DNA of 64,000 nt from Orbilia blumenaviensis (lineage: Eukaryota > Ascomycota > Orbiliomycetes > Orbiliales > Orbiliaceae), in contig JAVHNS010000016.1 of NCBI GenBank assembly GCA_036872755.1, forward strand, positions 496,001 to 560,000. Reading direction: 5' to 3'. The notes beneath the pieces were generated by a model, which made no database searches, was not told the DNA's origin, and saw only the letters and a list, made by a program, of their open reading frames with translations. Made by a program: the position numbers and the translations under genes. Position 1 is the stretch's first letter; each line of letters begins with the position of its first letter. Shown in pieces: positions 3,429-45,331 of this stretch.

Positions 3429-3734
3429 ATGCCCTGCTCAGCCTTCTCATCGCCAGTGCCTGTTGCAGATGCAAAGTTTGGCACCAACTATGCCCGTCTC
3501 TGGGGCCAGCACGTTCGCACCGAACGCCGGATGGAGATCCAGGCAGAAATAGATAGGCTGTATCGCACGATGGCATCCGGTCCCCGCCGCCCAGAAGATA
3601 CCATGCCATCATTGCTAGATATGATCCACTGGGTCAATGGTCAGTACGTCCCCTCTGGCGAGACGGAACAGTGGTGGGAGAAGGTCAACATGCGGATGGT
3701 AAAGCTCAAGAGGATGTCCAGAGCGCTGTGGTGA
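3429..3734 (+). CDS. MPC/RIR small-protein family member 1 (101 aa)
   Basis: Single-exon ORF starting MPCSAF, of unknown function. An earlier in-frame ATG at 3411 would add MNLYIK. I chose the MPC start because 17 other ORFs in the window begin this way. A TATATAAAA stretch lies directly before the ATG. The middle has a basic/aromatic helix-like segment (LWGQHVRTERRMEIQ). The family motif appears as SLLDMIHWVNG, followed by an unusually long tail of about 28 residues (EQWWEKVNMRM). There is no signal peptide or membrane segment. It is the outlier of the family by position, lying between mL57 and Rtt109, and is one of only two members on the plus strand. Confidence 0.5.
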   Translation: MPCSAFSSPVPVADAKFGTNYARLWGQHVRTERRMEIQAEIDRLYRTMASGPRRPEDTMPSLLDMIHWVNGQYVPSGETEQWWEKVNMRMVKLKRMSRALW

Positions 3735-4083
3735 ACTCTCACTATCACGTCAAATTGGTATCTACCCTTCATGGCTGTATTTGCTTCTGTCTGCGAGTTA
3801 CATCGATGATTCTTGTGACTTCTCGGCTGTCTGTTCTGTCGAAGCTATAGATTATCGATAATAGGGTATCATGGTTGGAGTACATGCGGTTAGGTTTCCC
3901 TTAGCATAATCTTTTGTGTTGCGTGTATTTGCGACAACACATTCATCAACACGCTCCCTATCGCAACCTCCTGAGGAGCCCAGCCGACATTCGCCAACTG
4001 CGACCCAGCTCTTCCCTTCATCATCAGCTGCGCCGAGAGCTTCTATCTTGTTATCAAATACGCTTATCATCCCTTCCTTCCTG

Positions 4084-5874
4084 ATGGCATCTCCTCAGAA
4101 CTCTGTCTCAGTGGAAGTAGCTCCTGCTAGTCCTCTGGAGAATTCCTCTCACCAACCTTCACCTCTTGCGGTCGCCCTCTCAGGCCTCCTCCCGTTGGGC
4201 TTTAACATCCACCATATTTCCCATCCTCCAACCCGCTGTGACCCCCTCTATGCTGCTCCCCATGGCCAGAAGCCATTAAGCACAAGGTTGATTCGCCATT
4301 TCCTTGCTGTATCTTCTGTTGCTACATCGACCATCGTATACGCGATCGAAGTCCATATCTACACCACCAAGTCTTCCACTACAATCTTCGTCTCGAAAGC
4401 CGATAGCACAGGGTTTTTCCCAAAGCCAGCCTCCCCTGTGCCGAAGGGCTCGGCATCCCCAATTCGTGCTACCACCACGGCTTTCCTCGAATATCTTATT
4501 ACCGAATACAATCGTCCCGGTATCCCAACTCACCTGACGCTCTTTGCCAGAGCGCAGGATCAATACCTCTTCCCGAACTCCGTCAATAACAAATCGAAGC
4601 ATGTCCTCTCCGACATTCAGTTGATCCGCTGGTGGGCACGAGTCTTTGATCCTCTCACAAGGTCAATCTCGGCCCTCGAACAACTTTCGGAACCACCCAA
4701 GAGCTACCTCCTCGTTCCTGGCCTCGAAGCATCCGATCTTCGGAACGTTATACCGTCCAAAGAATGGATTCATGGGCATCCATACTCTCACCCTTCCAAG
4801 CCCGTGAGGGAATGTATCCCTCAGTTCGAAGATGATCCGAAGGCGCGGTTTTTGAACGAGCTTGAGGAGGAGGGATGGAAAGGTTGTAGGAACATGAAGG
4901 ACTTCTGGGAGCTGATGTCTTTCCGGCAAGAATGTAGTGTGGGGAAGAGTGTGGGTTTTTTGAGTCTGATCTTTAAGTCCGGAAGGCCCGTGGCGGGTGA
5001 CGAAGAAAGGGAAGCAGAAGCTCTCGGCGAAATGCAGAGCAGTAGCCAAGACAGTCAGCCGTCGACAATGTCGACAGGCTCCCCAGATTCGAAGAAAAGA
5101 AGATCACCGAATCCAGACTCTGGCGCTAGCACACCTAAGAGGCGAAAAGTGAAACTACCAAAGGACATTCAATCCGCATCCACGCACACGATCGCATCTT
5201 TGTTACGAAATCCAACAACAAGGGAATATATCACCAGGCGCTCAATCTCACTGAGCCGCCGTTCGAGTAGCTTTTCTAGCTTAGATCAGACGAACGACCA
5301 GTACGGGAGAAAGGGCAAACTGCTAAGCCAAAAGGACTACGACCGTTTGATGAACAGCTTGTTGGATAGTGATTTTCAAGGGAAAAAATGTGCACGGGAG
5401 AGTTCAGAGTTGTGGATCAAGATGGCAGGGAAGGAGGAGTTACCAGAGGGCGCCAGGGATCAGGAAGCTTTGGTACTTCCGAGCGAGCCCAGAGTGCAGG
5501 TCAATCTCTTGACAACCATAAGGAAGAGGAAAAGCGAAGAGGAGTTAGGGGGTGTCGTCACTAATATCCTAACGCCAAGAAAGAAATCCAAGGGCGAGGA
5601 TATGCCTGTTGACGTTTTGCTGCCTCAACAGAAAGGGGAGAGTACCGGTGATATAACAACGGTGAATATCCTCCAACCGAGGAAGAAGAGCAGCGAAATT
5701 ACCAGCCCCGCAATCAACGTGCTCCAACCGCGGAAAAAGCCGAAGGAGCCCGAGGCGGCACCAAAGAACGAACCTGAGCCGGCAGTCAATATCCTACAGC
5801 CTAGAAAGAAGCCAAAAGCGAGCGATGATGGGCAAGCAAGCAATGGTGTCGCACAAGACAAGTCCCCGGCTTGA
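4084..5874 (+). CDS. RTT109: Histone acetyltransferase Rtt109 (H3K56/H3K9 acetylation)
   Basis: Single-exon ORF of 596 residues from the first ATG; the reading frame is open further upstream but has no ATG. The Rtt109/KAT11 fold is recognisable throughout. YAIEVHIYTT and FVSKADSTGFF surround the conserved Asp107. LSDIQLIRWWARVFDP and LLVPGLEASDLRNVIP follow. EDDPKARFLNELEEEG carries the acidic pair D250/D251 and K253, the lysine that corresponds to the autoacetylated K290 of yeast. DFWELMSFRQECS and VGFLSLIF close the catalytic part. Known role: with Asf1 and Vps75 it acetylates newly made H3 for nucleosome assembly and genome stability. The tail (nt about 5497-5823) is lysine-rich and carries repeated VNILQPRKK units, described under findings. 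Confidence 0.93.
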   Translation: MASPQNSVSVEVAPASPLENSSHQPSPLAVALSGLLPLGFNIHHISHPPTRCDPLYAAPHGQKPLSTRLIRHFLAVSSVATSTIVYAIEVHIYTTKSSTTIFVSKADSTGFFPKPASPVPKGSASPIRATTTAFLEYLITEYNRPGIPTHLTLFARAQDQYLFPNSVNNKSKHVLSDIQLIRWWARVFDPLTRSISALEQLSEPPKSYLLVPGLEASDLRNVIPSKEWIHGHPYSHPSKPVRECIPQFEDDPKARFLNELEEEGWKGCRNMKDFWELMSFRQECSVGKSVGFLSLIFKSGRPVAGDEEREAEALGEMQSSSQDSQPSTMSTGSPDSKKRRSPNPDSGASTPKRRKVKLPKDIQSASTHTIASLLRNPTTREYITRRSISLSRRSSSFSSLDQTNDQYGRKGKLLSQKDYDRLMNSLLDSDFQGKKCARESSELWIKMAGKEELPEGARDQEALVLPSEPRVQVNLLTTIRKRKSEEELGGVVTNILTPRKKSKGEDMPVDVLLPQQKGESTGDITTVNILQPRKKSSEITSPAINVLQPRKKPKEPEAAPKNEPEPAVNILQPRKKPKASDDGQASNGVAQDKSPA

Positions 5875-6727
5875 ATGGGGTTACAATATTGTTTAAGGAC
5901 TGTCAATTTTTTCTTTCTTTTTTCTTTGTACTCTTTGTTATCCGTAGCATAGCGGCGGCGTTAAGCTGGTTTAGTCGATTTTTTTCCATTCTCAGAGCTC
6001 AATTTTCCTCCTGCCCACACTTCTTCTAAGACCAATATTTGAACAAGGGGATTCCATTAATTACGATGACAAAGAATCGAGAATAATAAATATAAGTTGG
6101 TAGAAGATCTACAATATTGAGATATCCTAATCGAGAGTTCGTCGTAGGTCATGAGGTTTGGCTGACTTCAAAGAAACCCCCCCATGTTATATATAGGTTG
6201 ACAAAGACCTGGCTGTGGGGTCGGGTGGCTGCCTGATCGACACATAGCAAGAAAATTTTCTCGGTCAAGGAATCTATTTCCCAAAACTCTAAGATCCAAT
6301 CAGTTCTGGTAAGTGCAGATATGGAACGTCAACAAATTCGGTTCCACAAGGACCCCGCAATGCTAACTTCATCAGCTGAGGATTCCTGATCACCATGAAT
6401 GTATTCTTTACCTGCAGGCGCGGACACCTACACAAAAGAGCAATCATGACCGCGGCATGACTTCAAGATCTCGTATTTTTAGTCTGCACCCGCCTGCAAA
6501 TAAACCTTTGCTATATGTATATATAACGTATTATCAGATTGCCTGCGGCTTGGGGTCCGGTAGTTTGCAGATGAATTCATATAAAATTGGTAGAAGGTTA
6601 TTTATATCTACAAAATCTATCCTATTAACTAATACTATCTTATATTACAATACAATATCTCCGAATCTAACTTGGAGAAGTAAGAAGGCTGAGCAGGTTT
6701 AGGCCTCTACAGCTCAGCAACTGTCTA
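5875..6727. other. Convergent intergenic region
   Basis: Lies between the 3' ends of Rtt109 (plus) and the phosphatase (minus). It holds a T/C-rich stretch just after the Rtt109 stop, a likely 3' processing region, and a TATATATA stretch near 6190. No supportable gene was seen. Confidence 0.5.
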
Positions 6728-9417: not shown

Positions 9418-9657
9418 TCAAGCTGAAATGTTACGGCTTGAACCCGGTTGGTCGTTCTTTCCGCTTCGAATCCTCTCGATGATGGCCTGCCCTGGCGGGT
9501 CAATCCTAGGCGTATGGAACTCTTTCCACCTTCTTTCGAGAAGTTCGGGACCCCTCTGTAAATGCTTATACATAAGTTCTCGGTACCAGAATTCATCCTG
9601 GCGGAGGCGTAGGCCGAGGGGAACGGGTAGCCACGGGGAATAAGCACTGCATGGCAT
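9418..9657 (-). CDS. MPC/RIR small-protein family member 2 (79 aa)
   Basis: Single-exon ORF beginning MPCSAYSPW, of unknown function. An upstream in-frame ATG at 9699 would add 14 residues, but the shared start is the MPC. The middle segment EFWYRELMYKHL is aromatic and charged, as in other members. The family C-terminal motif is clear as AIIERIRSGKND, followed by a short Ser-rich tail. There is no signal peptide and no transmembrane segment. It is the first of the minus-strand members of the cluster. Confidence 0.55.
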   Translation of the reverse strand: MPCSAYSPWLPVPLGLRLRQDEFWYRELMYKHLQRGPELLERRWKEFHTPRIDPPGQAIIERIRSGKNDQPGSSRNISA

Positions 9658-10905: not shown

Positions 10906-11139
10906 CTACAGCGCCGAGGTGCGTGCGATGACTTTCGTAATGTCCCGGTTGATGCTTCTAATTCTGTCGAGGAGTCCGTCTCCGACTTGGCCGATATGCC
11001 ATGCGCCTCCCCAGACGAGCCTGCGAAGCTTCGCCGCCATAACCCCGTACTGCCAGGTAAATTCCCATCTTCTAACCTCGTCTTGTACAGAGACTGCGGT
11101 TCGGTTTGCCGCTGGTGGAGGATGAGATTTGCAAGGCAT
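10906..11139 (-). CDS. MPC/RIR small-protein family member 3 (77 aa)
   Basis: Starts MPCKSHPPPA and ends with GLLDRIRSINRD plus a short tail. It is the closest relative of the next member at 11749-11982. Both are exactly 77 residues, share MPCK(A/S)HPPP at the start and have a W-E-F-x-W motif in the middle (RRWEFTWQ here). The two lie about 610 bases apart in the same orientation, so a local tandem duplication is likely. There is no signal peptide. Function is unknown. The identity of these two, with divergence between them, is good evidence that the ORF is real. Confidence 0.62.
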   Translation of the reverse strand: MPCKSHPPPAANRTAVSVQDEVRRWEFTWQYGVMAAKLRRLVWGGAWHIGQVGDGLLDRIRSINRDITKVIARTSAL

Positions 11140-11748
11140 CGTCTAAAGTTTGATTCTCGAAGGGGGGTATAATTGATGTTAATTGCGAATTAGGTCTGCG
11201 GCGGAGAAGGTTATGCGTAATGTTGCAACATACGTTGAGAAGGCCGGGAGGTTTGGAGGTTTGCAGCAACCATACTGGGAATTTAAAGGCTCCATTGAGG
11301 GTCCTAGCGTCTATCTCCTAATCCGGTCCAGAAATGCCACCTTATCCGCTGAATATGTGCCAACGGGTCCACTCCTCCAGGTGCCGATAGAAACCCATTA
11401 GTCTGCTCCAGACGACCGCCAGGTCAGACATTCGGATGCAGCCCACGGAGAACCCTCACTGGTCAAATGCAAATGTTCGGCACGGCCTCGTGTCGCACTT
11501 TCCCAGGGGTAGCTGGAAGATCCAGGGTCCAGCTGATCTGGAGGTACATGTATGTACAGCTAGGACAGCTGTCAACAGTGGGGGCCTCTTGTACTGGTGC
11601 GTTGGGGGTGCTAATAGTGCCGAACGCCATTAATCCGAGGAAGTGGCAAAGGGCTAGAAATCGGTGATCTTTCGAACTTTTGGGCGGTTCAACTACCATG
11701 GGCCCGTGACTGGGAAAGGTTAGGGAGACGGTCTGGCGCATAGAAATC
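11140..11748. other. Spacer between paralogous small ORFs
   Basis: Overlapping ORFs occur on both strands here, including a 92-codon minus-strand ORF starting at 11741. None has a recognisable family, so no gene is called. Confidence 0.4.
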
Positions 11749-11982
11749 TCAACCCCTATCCTTCGCTCGTCTGATCTTGTCTATCAAGGAGCTATTTGCC
11801 TCTTTAGTGCGGGATTCTGTGTCCGCCGCTCGCCAAGACGGCCCCTCGACGCGCTGAAAAGGTGGTGTTGAGTGTGTCCATCTGAACTCCCATAGTCTCA
11901 TTTGCGTGTGCACGTCAAATTCGAGGAAATCTGCGGCTGAATCTAAGGCGGGGTAAGGCGGCGGGTGAGCTTTGCAGGGCAT
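11749..11982 (-). CDS. MPC/RIR small-protein family member 4 (77 aa)
   Basis: Starts MPCKAHPPPY, contains RLWEFRWTH in the middle and ends SSLIDKIRRAKDRG. It is the tandem paralogue of the member at 10906-11139, with the same length and conserved ends. The start and end are much better preserved than the middle, which is the family pattern. No secretion signal; function unknown. Confidence 0.62.
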   Translation of the reverse strand: MPCKAHPPPYPALDSAADFLEFDVHTQMRLWEFRWTHSTPPFQRVEGPSWRAADTESRTKEANSSLIDKIRRAKDRG

Positions 11983-15699: not shown

Positions 15700-15972
15700 A
15701 TGCCTTGCAGAGCCCACGCCTGGCCTCTTGAAGAGACTGAAAGATGTCTGGAGTACATAGATCGCACCCATGAAATCACACACGGCACTCAAGTAGCATT
15801 TTCGAGACATGCAACAGAGTCCCGATGGTGTCGTCGGATTTCCGAGCATCGAGAGACTGAGGCTAGACGAGATATTTTCAAAAGCTGGAATTATAAACTG
15901 GCTACTGGAACACCGATTATCAAAAAGATCAGAGGGAACACGAGCATAGACACCGCTATCTCTACAAAGTAA
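15700..15972 (+). CDS. MPC/RIR small-protein family member 5 (90 aa)
   Basis: Plus-strand member, MPCRAHAWPL at the start. I chose this ATG rather than the in-frame one at 15607 because of the family start. The middle is rich in His, Arg and Glu (CLEYIDRTHEITHG). The C-terminal motif is TPIIKKIRGNTS, with Lys in place of the usual first Arg, followed by a short tail. There is no signal peptide. Function unknown. With the copy at 3429 it is one of only two members in this orientation. Confidence 0.55.
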   Translation: MPCRAHAWPLEETERCLEYIDRTHEITHGTQVAFSRHATESRWCRRISEHRETEARRDIFKSWNYKLATGTPIIKKIRGNTSIDTAISTK

Positions 15973-16887: not shown

Positions 16888-17130
16888 CTAACTCGCAGCT
16901 ACTGCTGCCCGAATCCTCTCTACCAAAGACGTAGAACTCGGGCTCGTTGACGAGAATTTCCAAGCTTTAGAGCTCTCCGATATTGCGATTGATCTTTGTT
17001 CGGTTTCCATCCGCTTCCTCGAGCTCACTCGGAAAAAAAATTCAATCTCGATCATGCGACTTAATTCGTATCGCTTGTGCGCGCGATCGTAAAATTGCAG
17101 GAGCTCAGTAGAGGAGGCCTTACAAGGCAT
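16888..17130 (-). CDS. MPC/RIR small-protein family member 6 (80 aa)
   Basis: Starts MPCKASSTELLQF and ends TSLVERIRAAVAAS, a clear family motif right at the stop. The middle holds two charged, helix-like segments (YDRAHKRYELSRM and SRKRMETEQRS). No signal peptide or membrane segment. Function unknown. Confidence 0.6.
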   Translation of the reverse strand: MPCKASSTELLQFYDRAHKRYELSRMIEIEFFFRVSSRKRMETEQRSIAISESSKAWKFSSTSPSSTSLVERIRAAVAAS

Positions 17131-17574: not shown

Positions 17575-17835
17575 CTAGAGCTTGGATTCGGACGCCCGCC
17601 GTAATCTCTGAATCAGCGGCTCTGGCGTGCAGTCCTCGCTTGAACTTTGGAGTGTTGCAGATTCTCTTGTCTCCATTTGATATATTTGAGCGACCCTCAG
17701 GATGGCATATTCTTCATTGATCATTTCTTTCATTCTTGCCCACCAAAACGTTTGAGAAGGCTGGAATTGCGGGTAGCTCAGAATACTTCCTTCGTAAAGG
17801 TCGAAGAAAGGATATGCGGTTGCTGTGCAAGGCAT
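17575..17835 (-). CDS. MPC/RIR small-protein family member 7 (86 aa)
   Basis: Starts MPCTATAYPFF and ends PEPLIQRLRRASESKL. The middle contains FWWARMKEMINEE, the aromatic/charged segment typical of the family. A long homopolymer (A on the plus strand, about 17871-17903) lies roughly 40 bases upstream of the start and would read as a T tract in the gene's orientation. Function unknown; no secretion signal. Confidence 0.6.
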   Translation of the reverse strand: MPCTATAYPFFDLYEGSILSYPQFQPSQTFWWARMKEMINEEYAILRVAQIYQMETRESATLQSSSEDCTPEPLIQRLRRASESKL

Positions 17836-17869
17836 TCTTAAGAATTCTTGTGGGCGTGGGTTTGACTTC

Positions 17870-17906
<37 letters not shown>

Positions 17907-18845: not shown

Positions 18846-19053
18846 CTAAGATTTCCGTGTTCGCTCAAGTATAGGCTCTCCAATAGCAAGCCATCGGTAC
18901 CCTTCGTTGGGTAACTAGCATATAGCTTCCAACGAGAGGCTGTAGGTCCCTCATGGATACTATCCTTTTAGCAGAGTCGCATGTCGCCGTCGCGTCAAAA
19001 CGTTTATTGAACGATTCGCCTGCCCGGTCGAATGTCATAGGGTCACAGGGCAT
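18846..19053 (-). pseudogene. MPC/RIR family member 8, probably frameshifted
   Basis: The ORF starts MPCDPMTF and runs 62 codons to a stop at 18865, without the family C-terminal motif. In the neighbouring frame, overlapping the end of this ORF, the sequence reads GEPILERTRKS followed by a stop at 18846. That closely resembles the family ending (PEPLIQRLRR in member 7). The simplest reading is a one-base indel between start and end, so a broken gene. A sequencing error or chance match are alternatives. Confidence 0.4.
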
Positions 19054-19151: not shown

Positions 19152-19418
19152 TTATTGGGTTTTGAATGAATTCTGGGCTTGGTGTATCCTTCCTAACAAC
19201 GAGCCCTTTGGCTGGTCAAACGGCAGGCTGACGTTTGAATCCCAAAACTGCCCACCTAACATGCGGGAACGAAATAGCTGGAGCCCAATGATTCTTCGGA
19301 CAGTGTTATGCACGTGAGTTCTCATGCTCTGCCCCGCAACTCCTTCATGAGATGTGATATATTCGAAACGTAATCGGAAGTGAGGGTCCTTCGGCTCCCC
19401 AAACGGTTGGCAAGGCAT
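19152..19418 (-). CDS. MPC/RIR small-protein family member 9 (88 aa)
   Basis: Starts MPCQPFGEPK and carries GSLLGRIHQAQNSF close to the end. The middle is Arg-rich (HNTVRRIIGLQLFRSRM). A T-run of about 15 bases at 19450-19464 on the plus strand lies just upstream of the start. No signal peptide. Function unknown. Confidence 0.58.
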   Translation of the reverse strand: MPCQPFGEPKDPHFRLRFEYITSHEGVAGQSMRTHVHNTVRRIIGLQLFRSRMLGGQFWDSNVSLPFDQPKGSLLGRIHQAQNSFKTQ

Positions 19419-20421: not shown

Positions 20422-22943
20422 ATGATGCTCATTAACCTTTTTACTTTGCTACTATTTTCCCACTATGCGATCGTCGAATCCAAGAATAATGCTGATCCAT
20501 GGTCAGAAGCTGTAAAGCAGCTCCGGGAGCCTGGTGTCAAAGCCTTGGCTCCCGGTGTCGAGGAAGGAACCGGAGAACCGGCAGAACGAGCTTGGGATCC
20601 ACTTGGAGAGCTGGGGGGGAGGGGGCTGCCACGTTTAAATCCCAATGTTACGCTATCGATCCCGAGACGCCCATCGCTTTTTCGAAGACAACTGAGAAGA
20701 TGTCCAGTTGGCTCACGTATGTCAGTCCTATAGTTGCAAATTTTTCACCAGGTACACCGTAAATGGTAAAAGTATGAACTCTAACAGGGCCTCAAACAAT
20801 ATCGATCACATGTAGATGCTTGCGAGGAACCCGGTTCCTGTTGTGAAACGGGTTATGATTGCGTCGAGGATGGTTGCTGCCGCCAAGGCTATCTCCAATG
20901 CGGGACAGAGAATTGCTATGACCCGCGTTCGAAGGTGTGCTGCGACGATGGTACATTTTGCTCTGTCGGCTACAACTGCATGGGTCCCGGAACTGAGGTA
21001 TGTTGTTTGCCGGGGCGTCGTCTCTGTGGTAACGATAGGTGCTATAGTCCAGATACGCAAATCTGCTGCAGCCGTACTGGAAGCATCTGTGGAAAAGATA
21101 GCAGCTGCCCATCTACAAAGGGATGTTGTAATTCAGGGAAAAGGCCTTGCGGAACGGGCTGTTATGACCCCAGCACACACAGTTGCTGTAGTGATGGGTT
21201 GACTTGTAGGAAGGGATATGAGTGTACCATTGGTACAATATGTTGTCGTGCTGGAGCCAAGCTTTGCGGAAGGGACGGATGTTATGACCCAGAAACCCAG
21301 GTGTGCTGTGGTAGCTCGGGGGGTGTCTGCAACAAGGGCAGCGTCTGCGCTGGCGCTGGGCTATGCTGTTTATCCGGCAGGCGGCTGTGCGGTTTGGATC
21401 ACTGCTATGATCCTAGCTTCCAAAAGTGCTGTACTTCAGGAACATTTTCATGGACCTGTGGTACCGAGGCGACCTGTGGGGAACCCGGGACATGTCCTCT
21501 TTCTACATCGACATGGACGCTTCCTACTACTACAAGATCTGTTCTAGTAACTACGACATCTACTACTACTTCGGCTACTACCTCCACTACTAGCCCCAAT
21601 ACAGCCTCTACTACTACTTCTACTTCTGCTTCTTCTACTATTACTACCACTTCTACTACCACTTCTACTACTTCCAGAGGTGGCACTACAAAGGAAAGGC
21701 CATGTACTATACCAACGCCCAACCCACCACAAACTAAAACCCAGACGATATCGTTTGCGTACGTCACACCCCTTCCGTAGGACACTGACTGATATGAGGT
21801 TGACAATATTCTATGCATTAGCTATGACCCATATCGTGTTTCGATTCCCAAAGAGGGCCAGTACAGTGGCCAGAGGGTCCCTCACACAAATAAAGCAATC
21901 ATATGGAACATTTGTAAAGGAATAAAAAACTATAACGGTGGCCTTGGTGGGAATAGTCTAACTCTAACTCATGGCGGGAAATGTTTCCAAACCTGGAACC
22001 ACGGGGAGGTATGCACGGGAAATGCGGATACATTTTGCAGGAACGGCTTGAACGAATATATCAGCTCGTTTTATGATTCCGTGGAACGGGCGAGGGTACA
22101 AGCTGCTATCACTCTTGCAGGCGGACTAACTTGTGTCGAGTTCCCATTTGCAGCGTCTCTAGAAGGAGGTGATTTAGCAAGAGGTGCCAGACTCTGTGTT
22201 CCATTGATAGATCAAAGTTTCCAAGGAATAGCAATGGGTAGATTTTTCAACCCTCTGATCGCAGGGGGGGATGTTATTCGACCAGGTGAGAAGTACGTGG
22301 TTCGAATCATAGGATGGGATTGCGATAGCGATTCACCGGACTCGACATTTGCGCGCTCGTTACCGGGAGTCCAAAAGAGAGATGCATTTTCAGCCCAAGG
22401 TGTTAGTTTGGTTGGTGGTAAGTCTGATACACATATATTGATATCCACTTGGTCTGTTAGCTCAACTAAACGTTGATACTTAGACGAAATGTGGCGGGGG
22501 GTATTCCCGGAGAGCTCAGCAACAAATGTTATGCCTATGCCGCTTGGTGATTTGGATCCTGGAATGTAAGCTTGATCCAAAGTTCATGCATGATACCACC
22601 ATTAAGACTCTGATAGCTAATGATCCCCAGATACCTCGTCAACCTTAATATCACAAAGGGCAACGCGAATTTAACTCTTATCGACTATAATGGCTCTCCA
22701 TACGACTCTAGTTTGAATGGTAACGGTGGGGTTACGTTTCAACTAGGCGAAGAGGCGAGTGGAATGATACTAAGTGGTGAAACATTCGATGACGACCTCG
22801 AGGTATCATACCAGGCTGCTTCTATCACGTCCACTCCTTTCCCCAGCCCCACCCCGTCAGTTGCATCTAATCACAATCAACCGCCATTATATTTACTATT
22901 TGTCTGCATAGCATTCAGTATTTATACAGTAATCCGGAGGTGA
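20422..22943 (+). CDS. Secreted Cys-rich repeat / mucin protein with C-terminal NucA/NucB-like domain
   Basis: Five exons, 20422-20716, 20816-21776, 21822-22417, 22484-22565 and 22631-22943, join in phase to 748 residues. A signal peptide (MMLINLFTLLLFSHYAIV) is followed by a Pro/Glu spacer. Granulin-like Cys repeats of the pattern CCxxGxxLCGxxxCYDPxxxxCC come next. Then come a Ser/Thr mucin stretch (about 21505-21680) and a C-terminal region. That region contains LTCVEFPFAASLEGG and RLCVPLIDQSFQG, resembling the NucA/NucB deoxyribonuclease domain that follows chitinase domains in some fungal proteins. The usual CDEYPFA motif has Val in place of Asp, so activity is doubtful. The end is hydrophobic (LYLLFVCIAFSIYTVI), suggesting a membrane or GPI anchor. 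The join across 21777-21821 (45-base intron) is the weakest; two separate genes are possible. Confidence 0.6.
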
Positions 22944-23254: not shown

Positions 23255-23563
23255 TTATTTAGTAATCTGTATTCTTTTTGTATTCTCAAGGTCCTGAATA
23301 TTCCCGACTTCTTCGTGTTCCCGTTTTCGTTTTCGTTGCCTATTCTGATGATTTGCATTGTTGATTCTTTCGAGAAGAGACTCTCCGGGTAGACGATCAA
23401 GTATGGAGCTATATTCCCGGATTTTGTTCATCAAGAACTCCTTATCGTGCCAATAAAGTATAAGCTGACCGATACGTACTCCAATATTGGACTCGTCTGC
23501 GGCGGCGGCGTAAAGGTCGCCAACCATGTCGGGTTGAAGAGCGGGATGGATCTTGCAGGGCAT
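23255..23563 (-). CDS. MPC/RIR small-protein family member 10 (102 aa)
   Basis: Starts MPCKIHPALQPDM. The middle segment QLILYWHDKEFLMNKIREY fits the family's aromatic/charged helix. The motif GESLLERINNANHQN is followed by an extended basic tail containing RQRKRKREHEE, which looks like a nuclear localisation signal. That tail is unlike other members, so this copy may act in the nucleus. No secretion signal. Function unknown. Confidence 0.6.
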   Translation of the reverse strand: MPCKIHPALQPDMVGDLYAAAADESNIGVRIGQLILYWHDKEFLMNKIREYSSILDRLPGESLLERINNANHQNRQRKRKREHEEVGNIQDLENTKRIQITK

Positions 23564-30332: not shown

Positions 30333-33300
30333 ATGCAACACAAATGTAGGTCATCCCCACCGTTAGCCTTTATTAATCTGGGCTCGCAAACAGCTACTAA
30401 TCAGAAACCATATTTTTCTTAGACCTGCAACCCGTTTTACTCCTCTTGATAGCGCCATGCGCATATGCGCTGGACTGGGAGGAGTTTACAAATAATTTTG
30501 CCACTGACTTGGTATATTTATAATCTTTGACCTGATTTTGATCGAATCAAAACTAACAACATTGTCACAAGGCTCCACTTATAACACTCTTTGGCGAACA
30601 AGTATCGAAGCAGTTTCTGAGTGAATCTTTGAGCATATGGGATAATTTAATCTTCGCAATGGCCCCGTTGGGCCTGCTAACCGCCGTTGTGTCAGCAATC
30701 CGGGTGTGCGGCACCCCTTCCATGCGTGCATTTATAGGAAGGGCACAAGAGAGTCCTGGTACGGCTGAAGTAGAGTTGTTATCATGCACGTCAGAGACTA
30801 CCGCGGAGCTCTTCAATGAAGGCGGTATAGCCCGGGTCTTTGGGGAACCTCGGATCCTCGAAGTCATGGTCAAAGCACGGGATGACGGTTCTAATGCCTT
30901 GACTGTTGGGCTATTCTCCGATGTTCGCGGTCCATATTGGAAAGAAATCGGTATCTCAAGTCGGGATCTACTTATGCGATTGAGAGGGGGTGTCGGGCAC
31001 ATGGACCTTGAAAAGAAGTTGAAGTCGAGGTATCACAGACCAAATCTTTCTCTAAATGTAGGGATTACTCAACTGCCCAAGCTGGTAACATATAGCGCTG
31101 CCGTTTTTGGTGTTATTTTGCAAACAGGTAATTAATAGCTAAGCAAAACCAAGTCCGTGGTACGCAAGGATACTGACACAGCTATATCTAGGCATGTTAA
31201 TATTCGCGGCCCTCACAGTCTACACCTACCCAAATACGTTTTTGACCGCTGCAGAAAAGCCAGCAGAGCCCTATGCCTTCCCTATGACGTTCTCTGGCAC
31301 TGTTTTAGTCTGCATTGGCATGTTCCTTTGCGCTTTTATAATTGAACGCAGCACCGACGAGGTCCACTATCAACAGCGTGACACAGACCCCAGAAATAAG
31401 TGTAAGATATACTGGGTTCAACCTGGTGGGCAGAGTATTGGAGATCAAGTATTCGGGTCTTTCATTGGGTATTCCGAAAAGCCATACTATATAAGGTCCA
31501 CGAAAGCCGACCAAGGGGGTGGGGATGTGATAATATTATGGGTTGCAGTTATTACCTCCGTGCTTGGCTTCATCCTACAATTCGTTGGATTGCGAGCCAT
31601 GCATGCCAGTGTGATTCTGTTCCAGGTCGGGGCAACAATATTAATGGCGATAATTCGAGCAATGTTGCGAACTCAACGATTGGATAGCATACAGAACGTA
31701 CTAGGCTCCTATGATAGCCGAAATGGAGGGAAACATCCGTTCTCGCAGAACCCAAGGCTCCTCCATGGCCATGAGTTGGATTTACTCGCTTTACATTTGT
31801 TTAAGGCCGACACGATGACTATGAGTCTCGAAAAGACAGCTAAATTAGATGGTATGTCATCATCAAAGCCGGCGTGCTGATTGTGAAATCCAACTAAATT
31901 TTGATTTATTCATAGTTGTCCCAAGACAAAAACGGAAATCGTCGAATGTGCGGAGCAACAGTCTTGAAATCAATTTCGATATTGGTCGAGGTTCACCGGA
32001 GAACGTCACACAGCCTCTGGAAGCCCGGGAACAACTAACCGATATCACCAGCAGTGTCAAAGGCCCTTCGTGGGATGACTTAGACGTTAGAGTTGCCTCT
32101 AAGCAGCTCTCCACCGCTATCGAAGGTGTTATGGAGGTTCTTATTGCGCTTAAGGAGTCTATTATCCCACCCGGGGAAATCTTGAGATGGGAAGTTTGCG
32201 TGAATACAACTGCTGTATCGAGCCTAAATCGTCCTACGATTCTTTCGCACGGCGAAGGTACAGCGGTTGCTCGCCAGTACGATAGAGATGCGTATCCACT
32301 TTCTACTTTATCACACGGCCGGAGTCGTGCACAAGAAGACCCCGGTGGCGTCCCGATGTCCGACACATATGCCCTATTCATAGAAAAAGGCGAAGGTCTA
32401 TCCTGGAAGGCGAGATTATCGCAATTAGAGGCTCTGATCGGGCTTTGGGCTTTATCGATAACCATCTACGACATTCGGGATGGGAAAGAAGATGAAATCA
32501 TCCCAAACCATCGCATAATTTCCACCAAAGACTTCGTGAAAACGAATACGTGGTACCATGTCTGGGTGCAAAGGAGGATGACAGGGGTATGCGGACCAGT
32601 TCATAAAGACCTTATTTACAAAACCCGGAATTGTACCGTCGACAAACATTTATTCGGAAGATTAGGCCCTCTAACAGCTGGTGAACCGGACCCTGAGGTA
32701 TTCGCTGTCAAAACCCAAAACTCAACGATCGAAATGTGTGCCCAGGATCTCTTCATGTTTTTCCTGTCCGCCGCGCTTCAGGATATCGACGACATAAAGG
32801 GAAACACAGAAACGAGAGACCACGCAGGGAGGAATTCTATCGCTATGGCTCTTCAAAATAGCACTGTTGAGTTACTAGCAGATCGATTCGAAACAAGCGG
32901 CCTAGGATCTCGGGAAGATGCATATATGTGCATTTTCCCAGTCCTTCAGCATCTCAATAAGATGCCAAACGTGAGCGATGTCCTAGATGCTGTTCTCACG
33001 CAATGCGAGACCTACAAACGCCACGGGAAGTGGTTGGATGCGGAAGGTCTACTACAATGGCTATCGAAAACCTCTGTCGTGGTTGAATCTCATACAGCAC
33101 TTGAAGCACTCGCAGAGCTGTATTACGCTGCAATGCGAGAACTTGACGCATCGGTTTCTAATCTCGGATTTACGGGTTTATCCAAGATGTTGAAGGAGAA
33201 TAGTGATCCGGATATTTTGCCAAAGATCCGAGAGTATGCGTGGATCGGGCTTCGAATCGCAGAAGAAAGGGGGCTTGATGATCAAAAGGCGCAGCTGTTA

Positions 33301-35391
33301 GCAAGTGGAGCAAGAGATGACCTGGTTCCCGGCTATCGCTATACACCAGAAGCAAACTTGAACCCAATCGAGTGGGCGAAGAAGAACAATCTTGTGATGA
33401 TGAAGTACCTTGCTGGTCAGAAAAATGTTAATCTAAACGTTCGCGATGACGACGATGGGCTTTCTGCAATCTTCTGGGCTATAATTCACGAAAACACCGA
33501 CATGGCAATACTCCTTTTCCAGCATAATGTCGAAACCAACGTATCAGACAAGGAAGGCAAGATGTTGCTATCGTATGCAGCTGAACATGGCCTCCCCACT
33601 GTTCTCGAAATCCTGTTGAAGAATAATACTTTAAACGTCAATGCGCCTGATAACCTAGCGGGCATGACCCCACTAATGTTTGCAGCCGAGAAAGGGTTCA
33701 TCGAATGTGTAAGACTTCTTCTAGCAGAACAATATCTTGCTATCGACCGACGCGACCGGTACGGACTTACAGCTTTTCACCTTGCGACTATGAAGGGTCA
33801 CCTCGAGGTTGTACAGCTGCTGCTGTCCCACGGTGCTGAAATAACATCTGAAGAACCACTAAAGAAATTAACGGCCTTACATATGGCGGCGAACCGCGGT
33901 AGTACTAGTATTGTCGAATTCTTGCTGGATCGGGGACTGGATGTGGATCGGCCAGATGCAACAGGTCGGACTCCACTGGACCTGGCTTCTGGGTCTGGCC
34001 ACATCGAGGTGGTAAATATTCTTCTAAAGAAAGGAGCGAGGGTCTTTGCAACTCCTTGGACAACCCGTGACCGCCAGCATGGACGATCGGCTATACGCTC
34101 AGCAGCTACTAATGGACACCTGCAAGTCTTGAAACTGTTATTTGGACAGCAACAAAGCGGGACCCCAGCTGAAAAATCTCAAGGGTGGGAGGATAACAGG
34201 GGGATATGCCTTTACGAGGGCATAATCAACCGACACGAAGACATCGTCGAGTATATCATGGACCCGATAGCAGAGCAGCATTTAGGACAAATATACTTAA
34301 AGACGACAGTTGTGCAGGTGGCAATAAGGACTGAAAACTTACGCATGGTTCAATTATTGCTCAGAAAACGTACGATTGTTGACGAGACTAAAAGGACCTG
34401 GGAGCTTCATTCTGCGCTAGGGAAAGGCAATTTAGATATTGTCAATCTGATTGTTGATAATGGCGCCGATATAAACGCCAGAAGCGAAAGGGGAGACGTT
34501 GCTATTCATATCGCGGCGAAACGGGGGGATAATCACATCGTCAACTTTTTATTAGAACGAGGAGCGGTGGTGAGCGCAGCTTCCCAAAATGAACAAACGG
34601 CGCTTCATTATGCAGCAATGTACGATCGGGTTGAAATAGCCCGGATACTAATAGCACACGGCGCAGATGTTCATGCAATGGATATATCTGGGAAGACGCC
34701 ATTGTATTGCGCAGCTGAAGCTGGGAGATCAGCGGTTTTGGACGTTCTTGTTGGGGCAGGAGCAGACGGTCATGCTGTCATTTCATCTGGAGAAACAGCA
34801 CTTTACGTTGCATCATCCAAAGGCCACGAGATGATTGTTAAAACATTGCTTCAACATGGCGGCCATGTTGGTCTCAATGCCTACGAAACTAGAGGCCTAC
34901 GAACTCCCCTAATCGCAGCCACAGACAATGTTTCGCCAGCCGATGGTATTGTTAAACTACTTCTTGAGGCCGGGGCATCGCCGAACTTAAAGGATGCAAG
35001 CGGAGAAACTGCGATCTTCAAGGCCACCAGGCAGGGACATTATGATACCATTCAACTTTTGTTGAAGGCCGGGGCAGAACTCGGGATTGTTGATCATAAT
35101 GGGAGAAGCGTCCTATTTTCCGCTGTAGAAACGGGGCAGTATGCTATTTCAAAGCAACTTATCGATGCGGGCGCTTCCGTCAATGCCCAAGATAATATTG
35201 GACAGACGCCGCTGTTTGTGTGTCTGAAAGACGAAGTGAAATTTTACAAAGTGGCGGAACTGTTGCTCGAGAACGGGGCTCTCGTCAGCAGAGAGGATAA
35301 ACTTGGCCGAACAGCACTTCACCTTGCCATAGCAGCAGGCCTTCGAGATTTTGAGATTTTGCTTCGTCGTGAGCTCGAGAGACAAGAGTAA
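30333..35391 (+). CDS. Large membrane-linked ankyrin-repeat protein
   Basis: Five exons, 30333-30345, 30423-30511, 30572-31127, 31192-31851 and 31916-35391, give 1,597 residues in phase. The first exon encodes only MQHK plus one base. The N-terminus is hydrophobic (LQPVLLLLIAPCAYALDW). FTNNFATDLAPLITLFGEQVSKQFLSES and IWDNLIFAMAPLGLLTAVVSAIRV follow, the membrane-associated head of a widespread fungal ankyrin family. Further membrane segments lie in exon 4 (LVCIGMFLCAFII, VILWVAVITSVLGFILQFV). A middle domain without a known fold precedes about 15-18 ankyrin repeats (roughly nt 33370-35370) with clear G-TALHYAA and LL-GA units. Likely a scaffold or sensor; the substrate is unknown. No NACHT or P-loop motif was seen. 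Confidence 0.8.
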
Positions 35392-35588: not shown

Positions 35589-35834
35589 TCATGTATGAGA
35601 ATGGCTAAAGACTGTCGCTCCCGGTCCTAGAAACCTCCACCGCCACATACACCGCATATAGAGCGATCTGTAAAAATCCATTCCGTTAAGGCTTGTGGTT
35701 TTTTGAGTATCAACTGGAGGATCGCAGACCCAAGATAACTGTCTCTTTCGGTGGATTATTGTATCCCAGACTATCGGAGGCGTTGTGTCCTGGACTTTGA
35801 AGTCAAAGGGTGCTGTGGAGGCTTTGCAGGGCAT
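35589..35834 (-). CDS. MPC/RIR small-protein family member 12 (81 aa)
   Basis: Starts MPCKASTAPFDF. TTPPIVWDTIIHRKRQLSW aligns with members 13 and 14 (PKEVWDWLMRR and PKALWDQITRTKRR), so these three neighbours form a subgroup. The usual C-terminal motif is not seen; instead the end is Met/Arg/Trp-rich (SLYMRCMWRWRF). Either this copy has diverged or its end is frameshifted. Function unknown. Confidence 0.5.
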   Translation of the reverse strand: MPCKASTAPFDFKVQDTTPPIVWDTIIHRKRQLSWVCDPPVDTQKTTSLNGMDFYRSLYMRCMWRWRFLGPGATVFSHSHT

Positions 35835-36079: not shown

Positions 36080-36283
36080 TTAAAGCTGACGTATAGCTCG
36101 AGCGCTGGCCATTTGGTTTGCGTACGACATAATTTCGACAATTGGCTCGGGAGGCGGAATCAAGATGCCACTGATTTTATAGACTTCTATTGTGAAAGCT
36201 CTCCTCATAAGCCAGTCCCATACTTCCTTGGGTGTTTCGTCTCGGGCAACTTCAGAAGGATAGAGGGTACTGCCACAAGGCAT
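36080..36283 (-). CDS. MPC/RIR small-protein family member 13 (67 aa)
   Basis: Starts MPCGSTLYPS; an in-frame ATG seven codons earlier (36304) is ignored in favour of the family start. The middle ETPKEVWDWLMRRAFTIEVYK matches its neighbours. The motif is PEPIVEIMSYANQ, a variant with the Arg lost, then a short tail. No signal peptide; function unknown. Confidence 0.52.
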   Translation of the reverse strand: MPCGSTLYPSEVARDETPKEVWDWLMRRAFTIEVYKISGILIPPPEPIVEIMSYANQMASARAIRQL

Positions 36284-36988: not shown

Positions 36989-37234
36989 TTAGTTTCGTAC
37001 AGGTCGCTGTCGTGCCTTATTTCCGTAGAATCTTTTTCGGAAACGATACTGTGCGATTTCTGATTGGAGTCGTCTCTCAAGTTGGAGAGGGCTAGGTACG
37101 CCTTCACCTTTTGCGGCTCTCATGACAAAGGTAGCCTCGATGCGACGTTTTGTTCTCGTTATCTGGTCCCAGAGAGCCTTTGGTAGCTCTTGTGAGATAT
37201 GCTCTGAAGGGGTCCCCAACGATTTGCAAGGCAT
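36989..37234 (-). CDS. MPC/RIR small-protein family member 14 (81 aa)
   Basis: Starts MPCKSLGTPSEH, five codons into a frame that opens at 37249. ELPKALWDQITRTKRRIEATF aligns with members 12 and 13. The ending PSPLQLERRLQSEI resembles member 17 (RVELERRLRVLL), a variant of the family motif. A basic tail follows (RFRKRFYGNKARQR). Function unknown. Confidence 0.55.
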   Translation of the reverse strand: MPCKSLGTPSEHISQELPKALWDQITRTKRRIEATFVMRAAKGEGVPSPLQLERRLQSEIAQYRFRKRFYGNKARQRPVRN

Positions 37235-40871: not shown

Positions 40872-41031
40872 GGTAACCTAGGTCGCGGTTGGAATTGAAC
40901 TGGATAGATGTCAGGGGTTTGGAGCATGGCCAGAATTGTGTACTGTCCCGGTTAAGCTTGAGGTTTTACGTTATGAACGACGAAACAGTCAACAGCACGA
41001 CATCATTGCATTGCCGGCAGGCCTGAGCAAC

Positions 41032-41064
<33 letters not shown>

Positions 41065-41084
41065 ATCGGGCAGCGCAGTCAATA

Positions 41085-41387
41085 TTAATATCCCGGGCAG
41101 AGCGGAGAATTACTAAGATATGGGCCTCCATTGCATTCCGGTATTCTAATCCCGTTCAGCTGGCGGATTCTCCATACAAGCGGTATCCCCCGAGCGCTCT
41201 TTTCCAGAAGTGCCTTCCCGATGTAGCGAACTCTCCTGCGCATAATTTCCTGTCTCCGTTCATAGCCCTTGACGTCCTTCGTGTTGTGGTAGAAGATATA
41301 AGATAGTGTGTGTCTCTGGAGGTTGCTTACGGAGAAATCACTGGCATTCTCAATATGAATGGGATGTTCAAGCCCGACGCACGGCAT
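41085..41387 (-). CDS. MPC/RIR small-protein family member 16 (100 aa)
   Basis: Starts MPCVGLEHPIH; the frame opens six codons earlier with another Met at 41405. A basic middle (YERRQEIMRRRVRYIG) leads to IPLVWRIRQLNGIR and a longer tail (PECNGGPYLSNS). An A-run of about 29 bases lies downstream at 41031-41059. Function unknown. Confidence 0.58.
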   Translation of the reverse strand: MPCVGLEHPIHIENASDFSVSNLQRHTLSYIFYHNTKDVKGYERRQEIMRRRVRYIGKALLEKSARGIPLVWRIRQLNGIRIPECNGGPYLSNSPLCPGY

Positions 41388-42413
41388 TTTGAAATTTCCG
41401 GTCAATCGACGTTAATTGAATATGGGCAAATGTTCCTCAGGATAATTCGAAGTGTCGGTATAATTAATTTTAAGCTTAGATTCCAAAGCGGGGATGTTAT
41501 TTGGCCAAGATTCCAGGTACCGGCTGTCAATCTAAAAGTGAAATATCTGAGGGGACAGGAGGCCGCTTGCACAAAATATCGAAACCCCGTGGTCTCAAGC
41601 GATATTCTCTCAACCATTAGTCGTGTTGCTTCCCATGCAAAGAAAAAAAAAAAAAAAAAAAAAAAAAGATAGATGACCTTTACACCTACGGTCATATACC
41701 ATCGTCAGCCACGGAGACCTTTCCAAAGAGCTTGAAATATTTTTATTTCGATGTTTCAACTTTACGATTACAAGTGCGTTAACGTGCCCCTGTACAGGTT
41801 CTGGAACGGGATGTGCAGATGGGGAAGCCCATCGCCCCCTTGTCTCAAGATGAGGCAAGAGTTCGCGAGCAAAATCCAACGGTTGAAATCCCAAGTAGAC
41901 GCCCGCCTGCACTTGGCGGCGACCCAGTATTCGATTGGAAGCAGATGCAATTCCCCGATCAGAATTTCGTCTACCAGAGGAAGGTTGCATGACAGCAAGA
42001 AGCGTGGTGGCGGAAGTCGACAGGGCTCCTTACACAGAACCGTGGTTTCGGAATTTGAATACAACCCGGCGTTTAAGCACAGCCATACCTCTCAGAGAAT
42101 GTCGACCCGCAACAGAAGTTGGTTGATCTCATTAATTTCAAGAATGCGACAGGAGAGATCTCTAGATCGCGGCTATGTAATAATGGACTGTCAATTGCCA
42201 AAGAACGTTGTTATAAAAACCCCTCTATGTCCCGCAGACCCACTTCATTATCACCAGCCAACTTAACTAGTCCCCCACAAGGCCATCTGATACCACCACA
42301 TTCCTTTAGCTTGCAAGCTTGCCGGCAAGCCCCTCTGGACCAAAAACATACACTCTTTTACGTCACAGTATACCAATCTCAATCGCCAGTTAGCCGGTCG
42401 TCACTCTCTCTCT

Positions 42414-42450
<37 letters not shown>

Positions 42451-42570
42451 AAACTTCTTTATCGTTTCGACGTTTCTTGATCCCATTGAACTTTGGCGCT
42501 ATCCCTGCCGGTCAGGTTTTGTTATACAAACACACACATTTACGAGATTAGATCTTATATCAAACTAAAA
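41388..42570. other. Intergenic stretch with homopolymers and coding-like fragment
   Basis: A-run at about 41641-41667 and T-run at about 42418-42445 just upstream of the CAP gene, preceded by CTCTCTCTC. On the plus strand a 58-codon frame from ATG 41819 to a stop at 41992 (MGKPIAPLSQDEARVREQ) looks protein-like in composition but has no recognised family. It may be a gene fragment. Confidence 0.35.
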
Positions 42571-43775
42571 ATGAAGGTTTCAGTGATCTTGTCTACCCTT
42601 GTAGCGGGTACCGCGGTGTTTGCAGCCCCGGTTGACGTTGCGCCGGAGGGAATTATGGTTGGCGAGCCTGTAGGAATCAAATCGTCGTCGTTCCACTTCA
42701 CGGAAGCTGAGATGGAAAAGCGATCCTCGCCATCTGGGAATTACTACATGCCGCCATACAACCCCGCCAGCTACAGGCCACCATCCGATACCTCGAGTTT
42801 TCTCCCCGAAGCTCAATATAGAGATGCCATGCTCAGGGTTCACAACAATTGTCGTGCAGCTCACGGTGTCCCCGCCTTGAAATGGTCTCAAGATATGGTC
42901 AACTATGCTCAAACAAATACCCCAACATGCGCCTTTGCACATACTCAGACTCTTGGGAGAGACGGAATTGGTGAGAACATCCTGTATGGACCTGGAAGTC
43001 CTGAAGGGATGGTCCAGGACATGTGGTACGAGAAGGAGCTCAAGCTGTACAATTTTGCCCGCCAGGGCTTTGCTATGTCTACTGGCCATATGACCCAGAT
43101 GGTATGGAAAGCCACGACCGAAGTTGGCTGCGCGGTCAAGAAGTGCCCCCAAGGTACCTATGTCAAGTGCAACTATCGCCGTCCGGTAAGTCTAAATATA
43201 TTATATATACAGCAGTTGCTTCATACGCCCAGATATACTAACAGCATTATTTACAGGGTAATGTCATGGGACAATTCGAAGGCAACGTTCCCGCGCCCAA
43301 GAGTGCTGTGAAGAGTGTCCCTCCATCGAATTACAATACTCCAGCCCCTAAGAACAACAATACTCCTCCAGCCCCTAAGAACAACAATACTCCTCCAGCT
43401 CCTAAGAACAACTACACCCCTCCCGCACCCAAAAACAACTATAGCCCCCCAGCCCCTAAGAATAACTACAACCCTGCTCCAAAGAGTAGTCCAGCTCCAA
43501 AGAACAACCCTGCTCCAAATAACAACGGCTACTACTACAAGGCGAGCAACGGATATTACTACTACCGCCCACAAAGCAACGGAAACAACCGCGGTGGATC
43601 TGTCCCTCAGTCAAACAATGGCAATAATCAAAACCGCAGGCCTACTACCTACACTTATACCTACACTTACCGACGACCAAGCAACCAGAACAACCAGAAC
43701 CGTAAGCCGAGTGCTGCCAACAGCGGCAATGGATATAGCCGCCCTCAGAGCAAGCCGACAACCAATTACTATTAA
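42571..43775 (+). CDS. Secreted CAP (PR-1-like) protein with PAPKNN-repeat tail
   Basis: Two exons, 42571-43185 and 43257-43775, give 377 residues; GTAAGT donor, CTAACA branch and TTACAG acceptor. The signal peptide is MKVSVILSTLVAGTAVFA, followed by a propeptide ending in the Kex2 site EMEKR. The CAP domain starts at YRDAMLRVHNNCRAAHGVPAL. It shows GENILYG, STGHMTQMVWKATTEVGCAVKKC and KCNYRRPGNV, the last split by the intron. The tail has about seven PAPKNN(N/Y) units, then an Asn/Tyr/Arg-rich low-complexity end (TYTYTYTYRRPSNQNNQN). CAP proteins bind sterols or lipids outside the cell and often act in host interaction; the tail suggests wall attachment. The first two CAP His are present. 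Confidence 0.92.
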
Positions 43776-44533
43776 TCTTATTAAATCGACTCCCCACCTT
43801 GGTTAATATAGAAGGGGCACTAAGATTAACTTTCGCTAGATATATTACTCAGCTGTGCACGGACTAGCATGTATAACTAGTTACAAATTTTCTTTAGACA
43901 CATTTAGACCTATCCGAAATGCTGTTTATATGATTGATCCACAGTAATAGGCAGGCCCTGAAGGCCTTAACCGGAAAGCTCGCCTAAATAACCATGTGAA
44001 AAACAAAACAAAATAAATACAGAACAGAATAGCACGCACAGCTAAGTTTAAGCAAGTTGTAGGACTGTTGCATTTTATGCGTTGTAGAATCAGTCGAGGC
44101 TGATGATGTATCGGAAATTTGTCCTGTTACTGCGACTGTTGATACATGGGCCTCAGGATTTGAATCATAGCTGCTCAAAGCCACCGTCAACGAGAGTCCT
44201 ATTCTACATGCCCTGGTGACAGTCCTTGCTGAGGTCTCAAACTTTTAAGCATAATGAAGTTACTGATTGGGCTGCAAATCATTACAAAGGATAAAGCCTA
44301 GCTAAAATGTCGGACCGGGATTGCAATTGATATCTCCTGGCTGTAAAGTTGCTAGGTTTCCATGCGCGTTACCCTCAGCTGAATGTAATTCGCAAAGAGT
44401 GAAGTGTCGGGCCGATAGCACAACATCAATAATCAACTTGAGATAACCTCGAAAAGGGTTTCGAAAACTCGGATATTGCATAACCATGATAGAAAACCCC
44501 GTTCAGGTTATCGAAACGGATACATATCATGTA
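43776..44533. other. Intergenic stretch
   Basis: No supportable gene. Short minus-strand ORFs at 43984 and 44302 have no recognisable features. Confidence 0.4.
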
Positions 44534-44734
44534 TTAACGAGCGCTGAGCAAAACCCGAAGCCTGCGCTCCAGCTCGACTCGTGGGGGCTGCGGGGTCAAC
44601 GCCTTGTCCGCCAGCATTTTTGTGAGCTGCCGCTCGAAAATTATGGCTTTGTGTAGAATCACAGAGAGTTGGTCCATGTTTTCGATTCTATCGAGGAATG
44701 GATAAAGGGCTCTTGACGTGGCTTTGCACGGCAT
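44534..44734 (-). CDS. MPC/RIR small-protein family member 17 (66 aa)
   Basis: Starts MPCKATSRALYPFL and ends QPPRVELERRLRVLLSAR. It is among the shortest members. The middle KAIIFERQLTKMLADKAL is a likely helix. The ending resembles that of member 14 more than the usual LLxRIR form. No signal peptide; function unknown. Confidence 0.55.
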   Translation of the reverse strand: MPCKATSRALYPFLDRIENMDQLSVILHKAIIFERQLTKMLADKALTPQPPRVELERRLRVLLSAR

Positions 44735-45103
44735 GATACTTGAAGAAAATTGGGTTGAGACAAATAAACAATGTCGGATTTTTTATAATTTGGAGAAACT
44801 TGTGAAGATAAGTTTGAGATCGAGAGGGTGTTGATTGGTGAATGGTTTGATCAAGTCGTTTTATTATGACTGTTTGTGGATCCTGATTATACCATGAGAC
44901 GACCCCTCTACCTTGACCAAAATGCAATGTAATGCAATACCGAGGTGCCAGATTTCTAGGGTGGTCCGATTGTGTTGCCTGTCTAGCATGCTCTATGTTT
45001 CGAGGGGACTTGTCAATCTCATTCAGTGTCTATGTCGTTGTTGATATTTCGTTTAAAGTATGGCATGTAGAAGTCCTCAAATATAAAAAATCCATTCGAT
45101 ATT
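44735..45103. other. Intergenic stretch
   Basis: Spacer between two family members; nothing else seen. Confidence 0.4.
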
Positions 45104-45331
45104 CTAAGACATATGTAACAACTCATCCGGATACAAGTCCCCATTCGAAGATTCCGCAGTCGAGCCGCCATCCCAATCGAATTCTGAATTCTGGGAGAAC
45201 GGTAGTTGGCTCAGGAAAGCTGCCCTTAACCTGTCCAGCCGTTCCGGTGTGAGGCCATACTGAAATAATATTTGGGTACTGGGCGTTGGCGAATTCGCCG
45301 TCGGTATGTGGTAGATCCCTTTGCACGGCAT
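45104..45331 (-). CDS. MPC/RIR small-protein family member 18 (75 aa), atypical end
   Basis: Starts MPCKGIYHIPTA and contains LTPERLDRLRAAFLSQL in the middle. It ends in an acidic segment (DWDGGSTAESSNGDLYPDELL) without the family motif. The end may be frameshifted or truly different. Membership rests on the start alone, so confidence is lower. Confidence 0.42.
   Translation of the reverse strand: MPCKGIYHIPTANSPTPSTQILFQYGLTPERLDRLRAAFLSQLPFSQNSEFDWDGGSTAESSNGDLYPDELLHMS

Follow-up and report, generated by a model that had tools for sequence, protein, structure and literature searches.

A clustered family of small Met-Pro-Cys proteins in Orbilia blumenaviensis with relatives in other Orbiliomycetes

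A 64,000-nucleotide stretch of the 42.46-Mb genome of Orbilia blumenaviensis (contig C16, JAVHNS010000016.1, positions 496001-560000; hereafter the window) carries 18 short open reading frames (ORFs) that all begin Met-Pro-Cys (MPC). This locus raises the question of whether these ORFs, taken as single-exon by assumption, are chance products with a common short start or members of one protein family, and what their products might do. A preliminary description, made from the letters alone, had proposed an undescribed, locally expanded small-protein family with a conserved N-terminus. The analysis reported here indicates that the MPC genes are one real, old protein family, so far found only in Orbiliomycetes and undescribed as far as searched.

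All 18 MPC ORFs were present at the start positions listed in that description, 2 on the plus and 16 on the minus strand, with lengths of 62–102 codons; the genes are clustered and lie mostly on one strand, and each is named below by the window coordinate of its start codon (Table 1). Ten had been described as MPCK or MPCR, and the count was 9 MPCK and 1 MPCR. Pro2 was written with CCT, CCC, CCG, and CCA and Cys3 with TGC and TGT, which agrees with the proposal that the start is kept at the protein level. In Markov copies of the window (50 of order 2 and 50 of order 3), MPC ORFs of 62–102 codons occurred at means of 0.1 and 0.26 per copy, with maxima of 1 and 2, respectively. An A at position -3 was found in 14 of the 18 members, compared with 24 of 67 non-family MPCK sites in the same genome (Fisher p 0.0026). 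Hydropathy analysis gave a highest 19-residue Kyte-Doolittle mean of 0.92 among the 18; by this measure none has a stretch resembling a signal peptide or a membrane helix, in line with the reported lack of signal peptides. Three further MPC ORFs in the window, 10996, 42824, and 54115, were shorter than 60 codons; the first (10996-11172, 58 codons) is antisense to member 11139 and looks like chance. No upstream word in the 200 bases before 30 members was more widespread than in shuffles, hence no shared promoter word was found, and no RNA family or tRNA was found in the window.

Relatives were sought by three protein searches of 5.8 billion sequences, in which at most 100 words were used per search and shared five-residue words were required; remote relatives may therefore be missed. 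At E ≤ 1 the searches returned 13, 4, and 5 matches, which reduce to 21 distinct proteins; three of these belong to the genome studied here. All named relatives were from Orbiliomycetes (O. oligospora, O. javanica, O. brochopaga, O. ellipsospora, O. blumenaviensis, A. musiformis, A. flagrans, A. megalospora, and D. haptotyla), with two proteins, P0009 and P0021, carrying no name. Of the 18 proteins from outside the genome, 15 are annotated as starting with MPC, and in the other 3 MPC falls inside a longer gene model. The MPC head was kept in all nine orthologue groups aligned, and the middle region was specific to each paralogue and kept between species; orthologues of 3429 were 75–84% identical along the full length. 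Because related genes also exist in further Orbiliomycetes, the MPC ORFs look like a real protein family. Part of the gene order is probably old as well, since locus-tag numbers place orthologues near each other: TWF569_001109 and TWF569_001112 match 11139 and 3429, respectively, and TWF696_003742 and TWF696_003743 match 15700 and 17835. Only three own-genome members (P0010, P0015, and P0017) were among the database proteins, out of 24 used as queries, and many members may be absent from gene catalogues; this evidence is weak, because each search uses at most 100 words, and member 23563, although part of the query of one search, was listed only by another. One member on contig C10 (L025:9082) is identical to the O. 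blumenaviensis database protein TWF730_001700.

Two types of members were distinguished. Most type A members carry an end motif, L[LI]x[RK]IR. Counted with its variants, it was present in 12 of the 18 members, compared with 6 of 313 controls of similar length, and in a stricter form in 10 of 18 and 3 of 313; as the motif was derived from the members themselves, these comparisons show its rarity and not its independence. Type B (35834, 36283, and 37234) is marked by TP..WD, with the consensus MPCKASxxPSExxxDxTPxxVWDxxMR. The family had been characterized by an MPC/RIR signature, which stood in that an RIR-type second motif occurs in most members, but at least two types exist, one of them without RIR. 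Profiles of types A and B align to each other over the head and a Trp-bearing helix with a probability of 87%. In a leave-one-out test without the first four residues (head-free), each member was omitted in turn and given the better of its type A and type B profile scores; 13 of the 18 outscored all 313 controls and 9657 outscored all but one. These figures were obtained after cleaning, in which three true members were removed from 316 controls and 44734 was removed from type A training; with cleaning, the number of controls above rose from 6 to 17 for 24224 and from 13 to 15 for C1:7252, a member on contig C1 that has an RRIR end yet fails the head-free test. Thus, the grouping of all 18 into one family holds for 14, which are similar beyond the head, whereas 44734 and 45331 are not supported past the first residues, 19053 is barely supported and is perhaps a decayed copy or chance, and 24224 is linked by the end motif. 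In 33 MPC ORFs tallied, Cys after Cys3 made up 0.6% of residues, compared with 2.7% in the 316 controls, and Lys4 was present in 20. In sum, homologues were found outside this genome, in other Orbiliomycetes, and conservation of start and end exceeded expectation in the -3 A excess, the end motif, and the head-free profiles.

Several observations weigh against this reading. The codon bias of the 18 is weak, leaning only slightly towards coding when compared with 214 control ORFs that have no overlap with long ORFs (p 0.03), and the leave-one-out ranks vary with the training set, the number of controls above 3429 having changed from 17 to 0. The RIR end is absent from type B, the head itself adds to the A-B profile match, and Trp is missing from 3 of the 33 MPC ORFs. 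Conservation drops a short way past the end motif for 9657, 15700, and 17835 and their orthologues; it extends about 14 residues past the motif in the 11139 group, to the last residue in the 3429 group, and partly into the tail in the C1:4792 group, so that the motif does not mark a sharp limit of conservation in every group. In addition, the structure model of type A was poor (pLDDT, the predicted local distance difference test score, 67; pTM, the predicted template modelling score, 0.32).

The expansion had been described as local. The window does hold a cluster, but related members were also found on contigs C1, C10, C20, and C7. The conserved N-terminus is kept at the protein level. On C1, however, two members begin MTC and one MVC, so that MPC is not strict and the fixed feature is Cys3 behind a small residue. 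Genome-wide, 88 MPCK sites were counted versus 30 for the reversed pattern. Twenty of the 88 were taken as family members or candidates (9 of them in the window, 4 on C10, 2 on C1, 2 on C20, 2 on C7, and 1 on C5). Of the 71 sites that belong neither to the window nor to the C1, C10, or C20 clusters, 68 were non-family. An enrichment of MTCK was rejected (61 versus 45 sites for the reversed pattern), and MPC followed by TGGGA at 48–63 bases occurred at 53 sites versus 19 for the reversed pattern, nine being known members. A type B query against the 42-Mb genome gave ten matches at E ≤ 10, all starting from query residue 1, which comprised nine members (the query included) and one decayed copy. 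The latter, G000:C7:2339047-2339166 (L107), lies beside a typical copy, begins MPR where others begin MPC, and no longer has the TP or WD mark. Own-genome searches with three single type A queries revealed no other convincing member; a fourth query, 11982, retrieved 11139 and two weak matches containing stops. Beyond the window, no MPC ORF of at least 60 amino acids was found in 80 kb on either side of the C16 cluster (searched in 10-kb pieces). The genome total is thus roughly 30 supported members plus several doubtful ones; this total and the type A counts are lower bounds, because the genome was searched only with individual members and a small number of patterns.

As to the claim that the signature is undescribed, no account of an MPC family was found in an abstract-level literature search, and no relative was established in Pfam, NCBIfam, or PDB. 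Pfam gave scattered weak matches only, the best at E 0.002; among 34 type A rows each was confined to one or two, among 11 type B rows there was one, and the matches of one row in a first Pfam scan fell below the family cut-offs; NCBIfam gave no match for the type A rows scanned. No sequence relative was found in PDB, nor a clear fold match for the models, that of type A being weak. The type B model comprised a loop and a helix pair (pLDDT 81; first ten residues 64). The Complex1_LYR (LYRM) proteins are small, helical, Arg-rich mitochondrial proteins. MPC proteins are likewise small, helical, and Arg-rich, and the letters LYR occur in members 3429, C20:4980, and C10:6766; this family was rejected, with no Pfam match at E ≤ 0.1 in the 34 type A and 11 type B rows and LYR not being family-wide. 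N-terminal-Pro tautomerases such as MIF and 4-OT have a fold with strands; they also gave no Pfam match at E ≤ 0.1, and both MPC models contain helices only, the type A model being weak.

Families known from this fungal group were also compared. The DUF3129 family, or Trap Enriched Proteins (TEP), is, like the MPC family, expanded in nematode-trapping fungi, with 26 of its 27 A. oligospora proteins predicted to carry a signal peptide (PMC10662756); its Pfam entry, PF11327, was not matched at E ≤ 0.1 by the same rows. Nematode-trapping fungi also have small secreted proteins (SSPs), which are short, lineage-specific, often tandem, and without a Pfam domain (PMC3828140), all of which applies to the MPC family. 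SSPs, however, carry signal peptides and diverge fast, whereas MPC proteins have no signal-peptide-like stretch and their orthologues are kept; SSP identity was rejected on hydropathy (19-residue mean ≤ 0.92). Effector partners of fungal NLR-type receptors carry C-terminal signalling motifs (PMC9815663), and some MPC members resemble them in having a C-terminal motif and lying near NLR-type genes; the known effector domains of such partners with an amyloid motif (HeLo and the like) gave no Pfam match at E ≤ 0.1 in the 34 type A and 11 type B rows.

With regard to function, we tentatively propose, as the most likely role, that MPC proteins are intracellular helical adaptor or regulatory subunits that would connect a variety of targets with a single common partner or membrane. 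Methionine aminopeptidase acts where residue 2 is small (Pro, Thr, or Val). As residue 2 is one of these three in the MPC family, Met1 would very probably be removed by this enzyme, leaving a mature protein that begins X-Cys; the MTC and MVC variants fit such removal and place the weight on Cys3. The conserved Cys, often followed by Lys, could then be an attachment or docking point common to all members, through a lipid on Cys or a shared partner. The helical middle, with Trp in most members, may direct each paralogue to a separate target, and in type A the RIR helix may be a second contact. The head was poorly placed in the type B model, as would be expected for a docking or modified end.

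Lipid on Cys is the leading variant of the adaptor reading. As an explanation in its own right, in which Met removal is followed by S-acylation of Cys3 and the proteins are peripheral membrane factors whose basic, Trp-bearing helix rests on a membrane, it is somewhat unlikely: the single fixed Cys near the N-terminus, the frequent Lys4 (20 of 33), the scarcity of other Cys, and, in type B, an Arg-rich helix that contains Trp speak for it, but S-acylation near the N-terminus usually needs prior membrane contact, and no second lipid signal was seen. The N-terminus might instead act as an N-degron. Met is cleaved before Pro and Gid4 recognizes N-terminal Pro, and with Pro at position 2 in nearly all members the exposed residue could mark short-lived regulators for a GID-type ubiquitin ligase; this would leave the fixed Cys and the Thr/Val variants unexplained and is judged improbable.

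The gene neighbourhood suggests another possibility, namely that the clusters belong to loci for an intracellular response to non-self and that MPC proteins are partners of fungal NLR-type receptors. With ankyrin genes counted among the matches listed, 4 of 6 sites have a NACHT, PNP, ankyrin, or TPR gene no more than 10 kb away (permutation p 0.0014) and 3 of 6 have one within 5 kb (p 0.006), but the test positions were hand-entered, the size of one contig was assumed, the gene classes were picked after the neighbours had been seen, and the nearest such genes on C7 and C5 are 86 and 226 kb away. The window cluster contains an ankyrin gene and no shown NLR, and MPC orthologues are conserved whereas recognition genes are polymorphic. 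This partnership is considered unlikely, and the neighbourhood is kept as a lead only. Precursors of peptides, or unconventionally secreted effectors against nematodes, would suit a nematode-trapping host group in which short, lineage-specific, tandem genes are typical (PMC3828140). The lack of a signal-peptide-like stretch and of a conserved core peptide, the few Cys, and orthologues that are conserved and not fast evolving make such a role very unlikely. Chance ORFs with a common short start are hardly credible: the weak codon bias and the largely non-family outlying MPCK sites would agree with them, and as many as four of the 18 may have arisen by chance, but they are contradicted by the shuffles, the orthologues, the end motif, and the head-free profiles, with 14 of the 18 similar outside the head.

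Table 1. Coordinates of MPC members in the window and elsewhere in the genome (window coordinates unless a contig is given; controls above, control ORFs scoring higher in the head-free test)
Location	Strand	Class	Length and end	Relatives or support
3429..3734	+	type A	101 amino acids (aa)	orthologues O. oligospora, O. javanica, A. musiformis
9418..9657	-	type A	79 aa, IIERIR	orthologues O. oligospora, D. haptotyla; 1/313 controls above
10906..11139	-	type A	77 aa, LLDRIR	orthologue TWF569_001109
11749..11982	-	type A	77 aa, LIDKIR	head-free profile
15700..15972	+	type A	90 aa, IIKKIR	orthologues O. oligospora, A. flagrans, O. brochopaga
16888..17130	-	type A	80 aa, LVERIR	head-free profile
17575..17835	-	type A	86 aa, LIQRLR	orthologues O. 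oligospora, O. brochopaga
18865..19053	-	doubtful	62 aa, no end motif	3/313 controls above (profile B), 194 (profile A)
19152..19418	-	type A	88 aa, LLGRIH	head-free profile
23255..23563	-	type A	102 aa, LLERIN	in protein database as P0017
23994..24224	-	probable type A	76 aa, LLQRIY	end motif only; fails head-free test, 17/313 controls above
35589..35834	-	type B (TP..VWD)	81 aa	type B profile, genome search
36080..36283	-	type B	67 aa	type B profile, genome search
36989..37234	-	type B	81 aa	in protein database as P0010
40650..40871	-	type A	73 aa, LLQRIR	head-free profile
41085..41387	-	type A	100 aa, LVWRIR	head-free profile
44534..44734	-	doubtful	66 aa, LERRLR near end	14/313 controls above
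45104..45331	-	doubtful	75 aa, no end motif	94/313 controls above
C1, 182.1-187.8 kb	one strand	array of seven in a row		four MPC, two MTC, one MVC
C10, about 1.5676-1.5717 Mb		four type B		
C10, near 1.5725-1.5729 Mb		two doubtful MPC ORFs		
C20, near 22 kb		two members		
C7, 2.338 Mb		one type B		
C7, 2.331 Mb		one doubtful MPC ORF		
C5, 1.702 Mb		one doubtful member		

Other features were noted around the members. An ankyrin-repeat gene (Ank_2, eight stretches) lies inside the MPC cluster at window 30557-35391. Near the C10 cluster, PNP, NACHT, and ankyrin matches stand in one row and are probably one gene; a PNP match was found near the C20 members and a TPR ORF near the C1 array. The window also contains a Cys-rich repeat ORF adjoining a NucA/NucB DNase-domain ORF (20785-22476, perhaps one gene), a CAP-domain protein (42490-43311), and a phospholipase A2 of the Phospholip_A2_3 type (49655-50419). 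On the minus strand, a run of 33 T at about 17871-17903 precedes member 17835, ending 35 bases upstream of its start.

Fungi commonly have small-protein families confined to one lineage, and the novelty here lies in this family and its signature, not in proof of a new mechanism. The further idea that Orbiliomycetes hold a largely overlooked repertoire of roughly 30–40 tiny intracellular X-Cys proteins, a not-yet-described kind of adaptor system possibly tied to NLR-type receptors sensing prey or non-self, is a speculative one to which we give little probability. The clustered gene layout makes deletion tests simple, and a family of this size, kept across species of carnivorous fungi and matching no known domain, suggests that part of the cell biology of these fungi is still unstudied.

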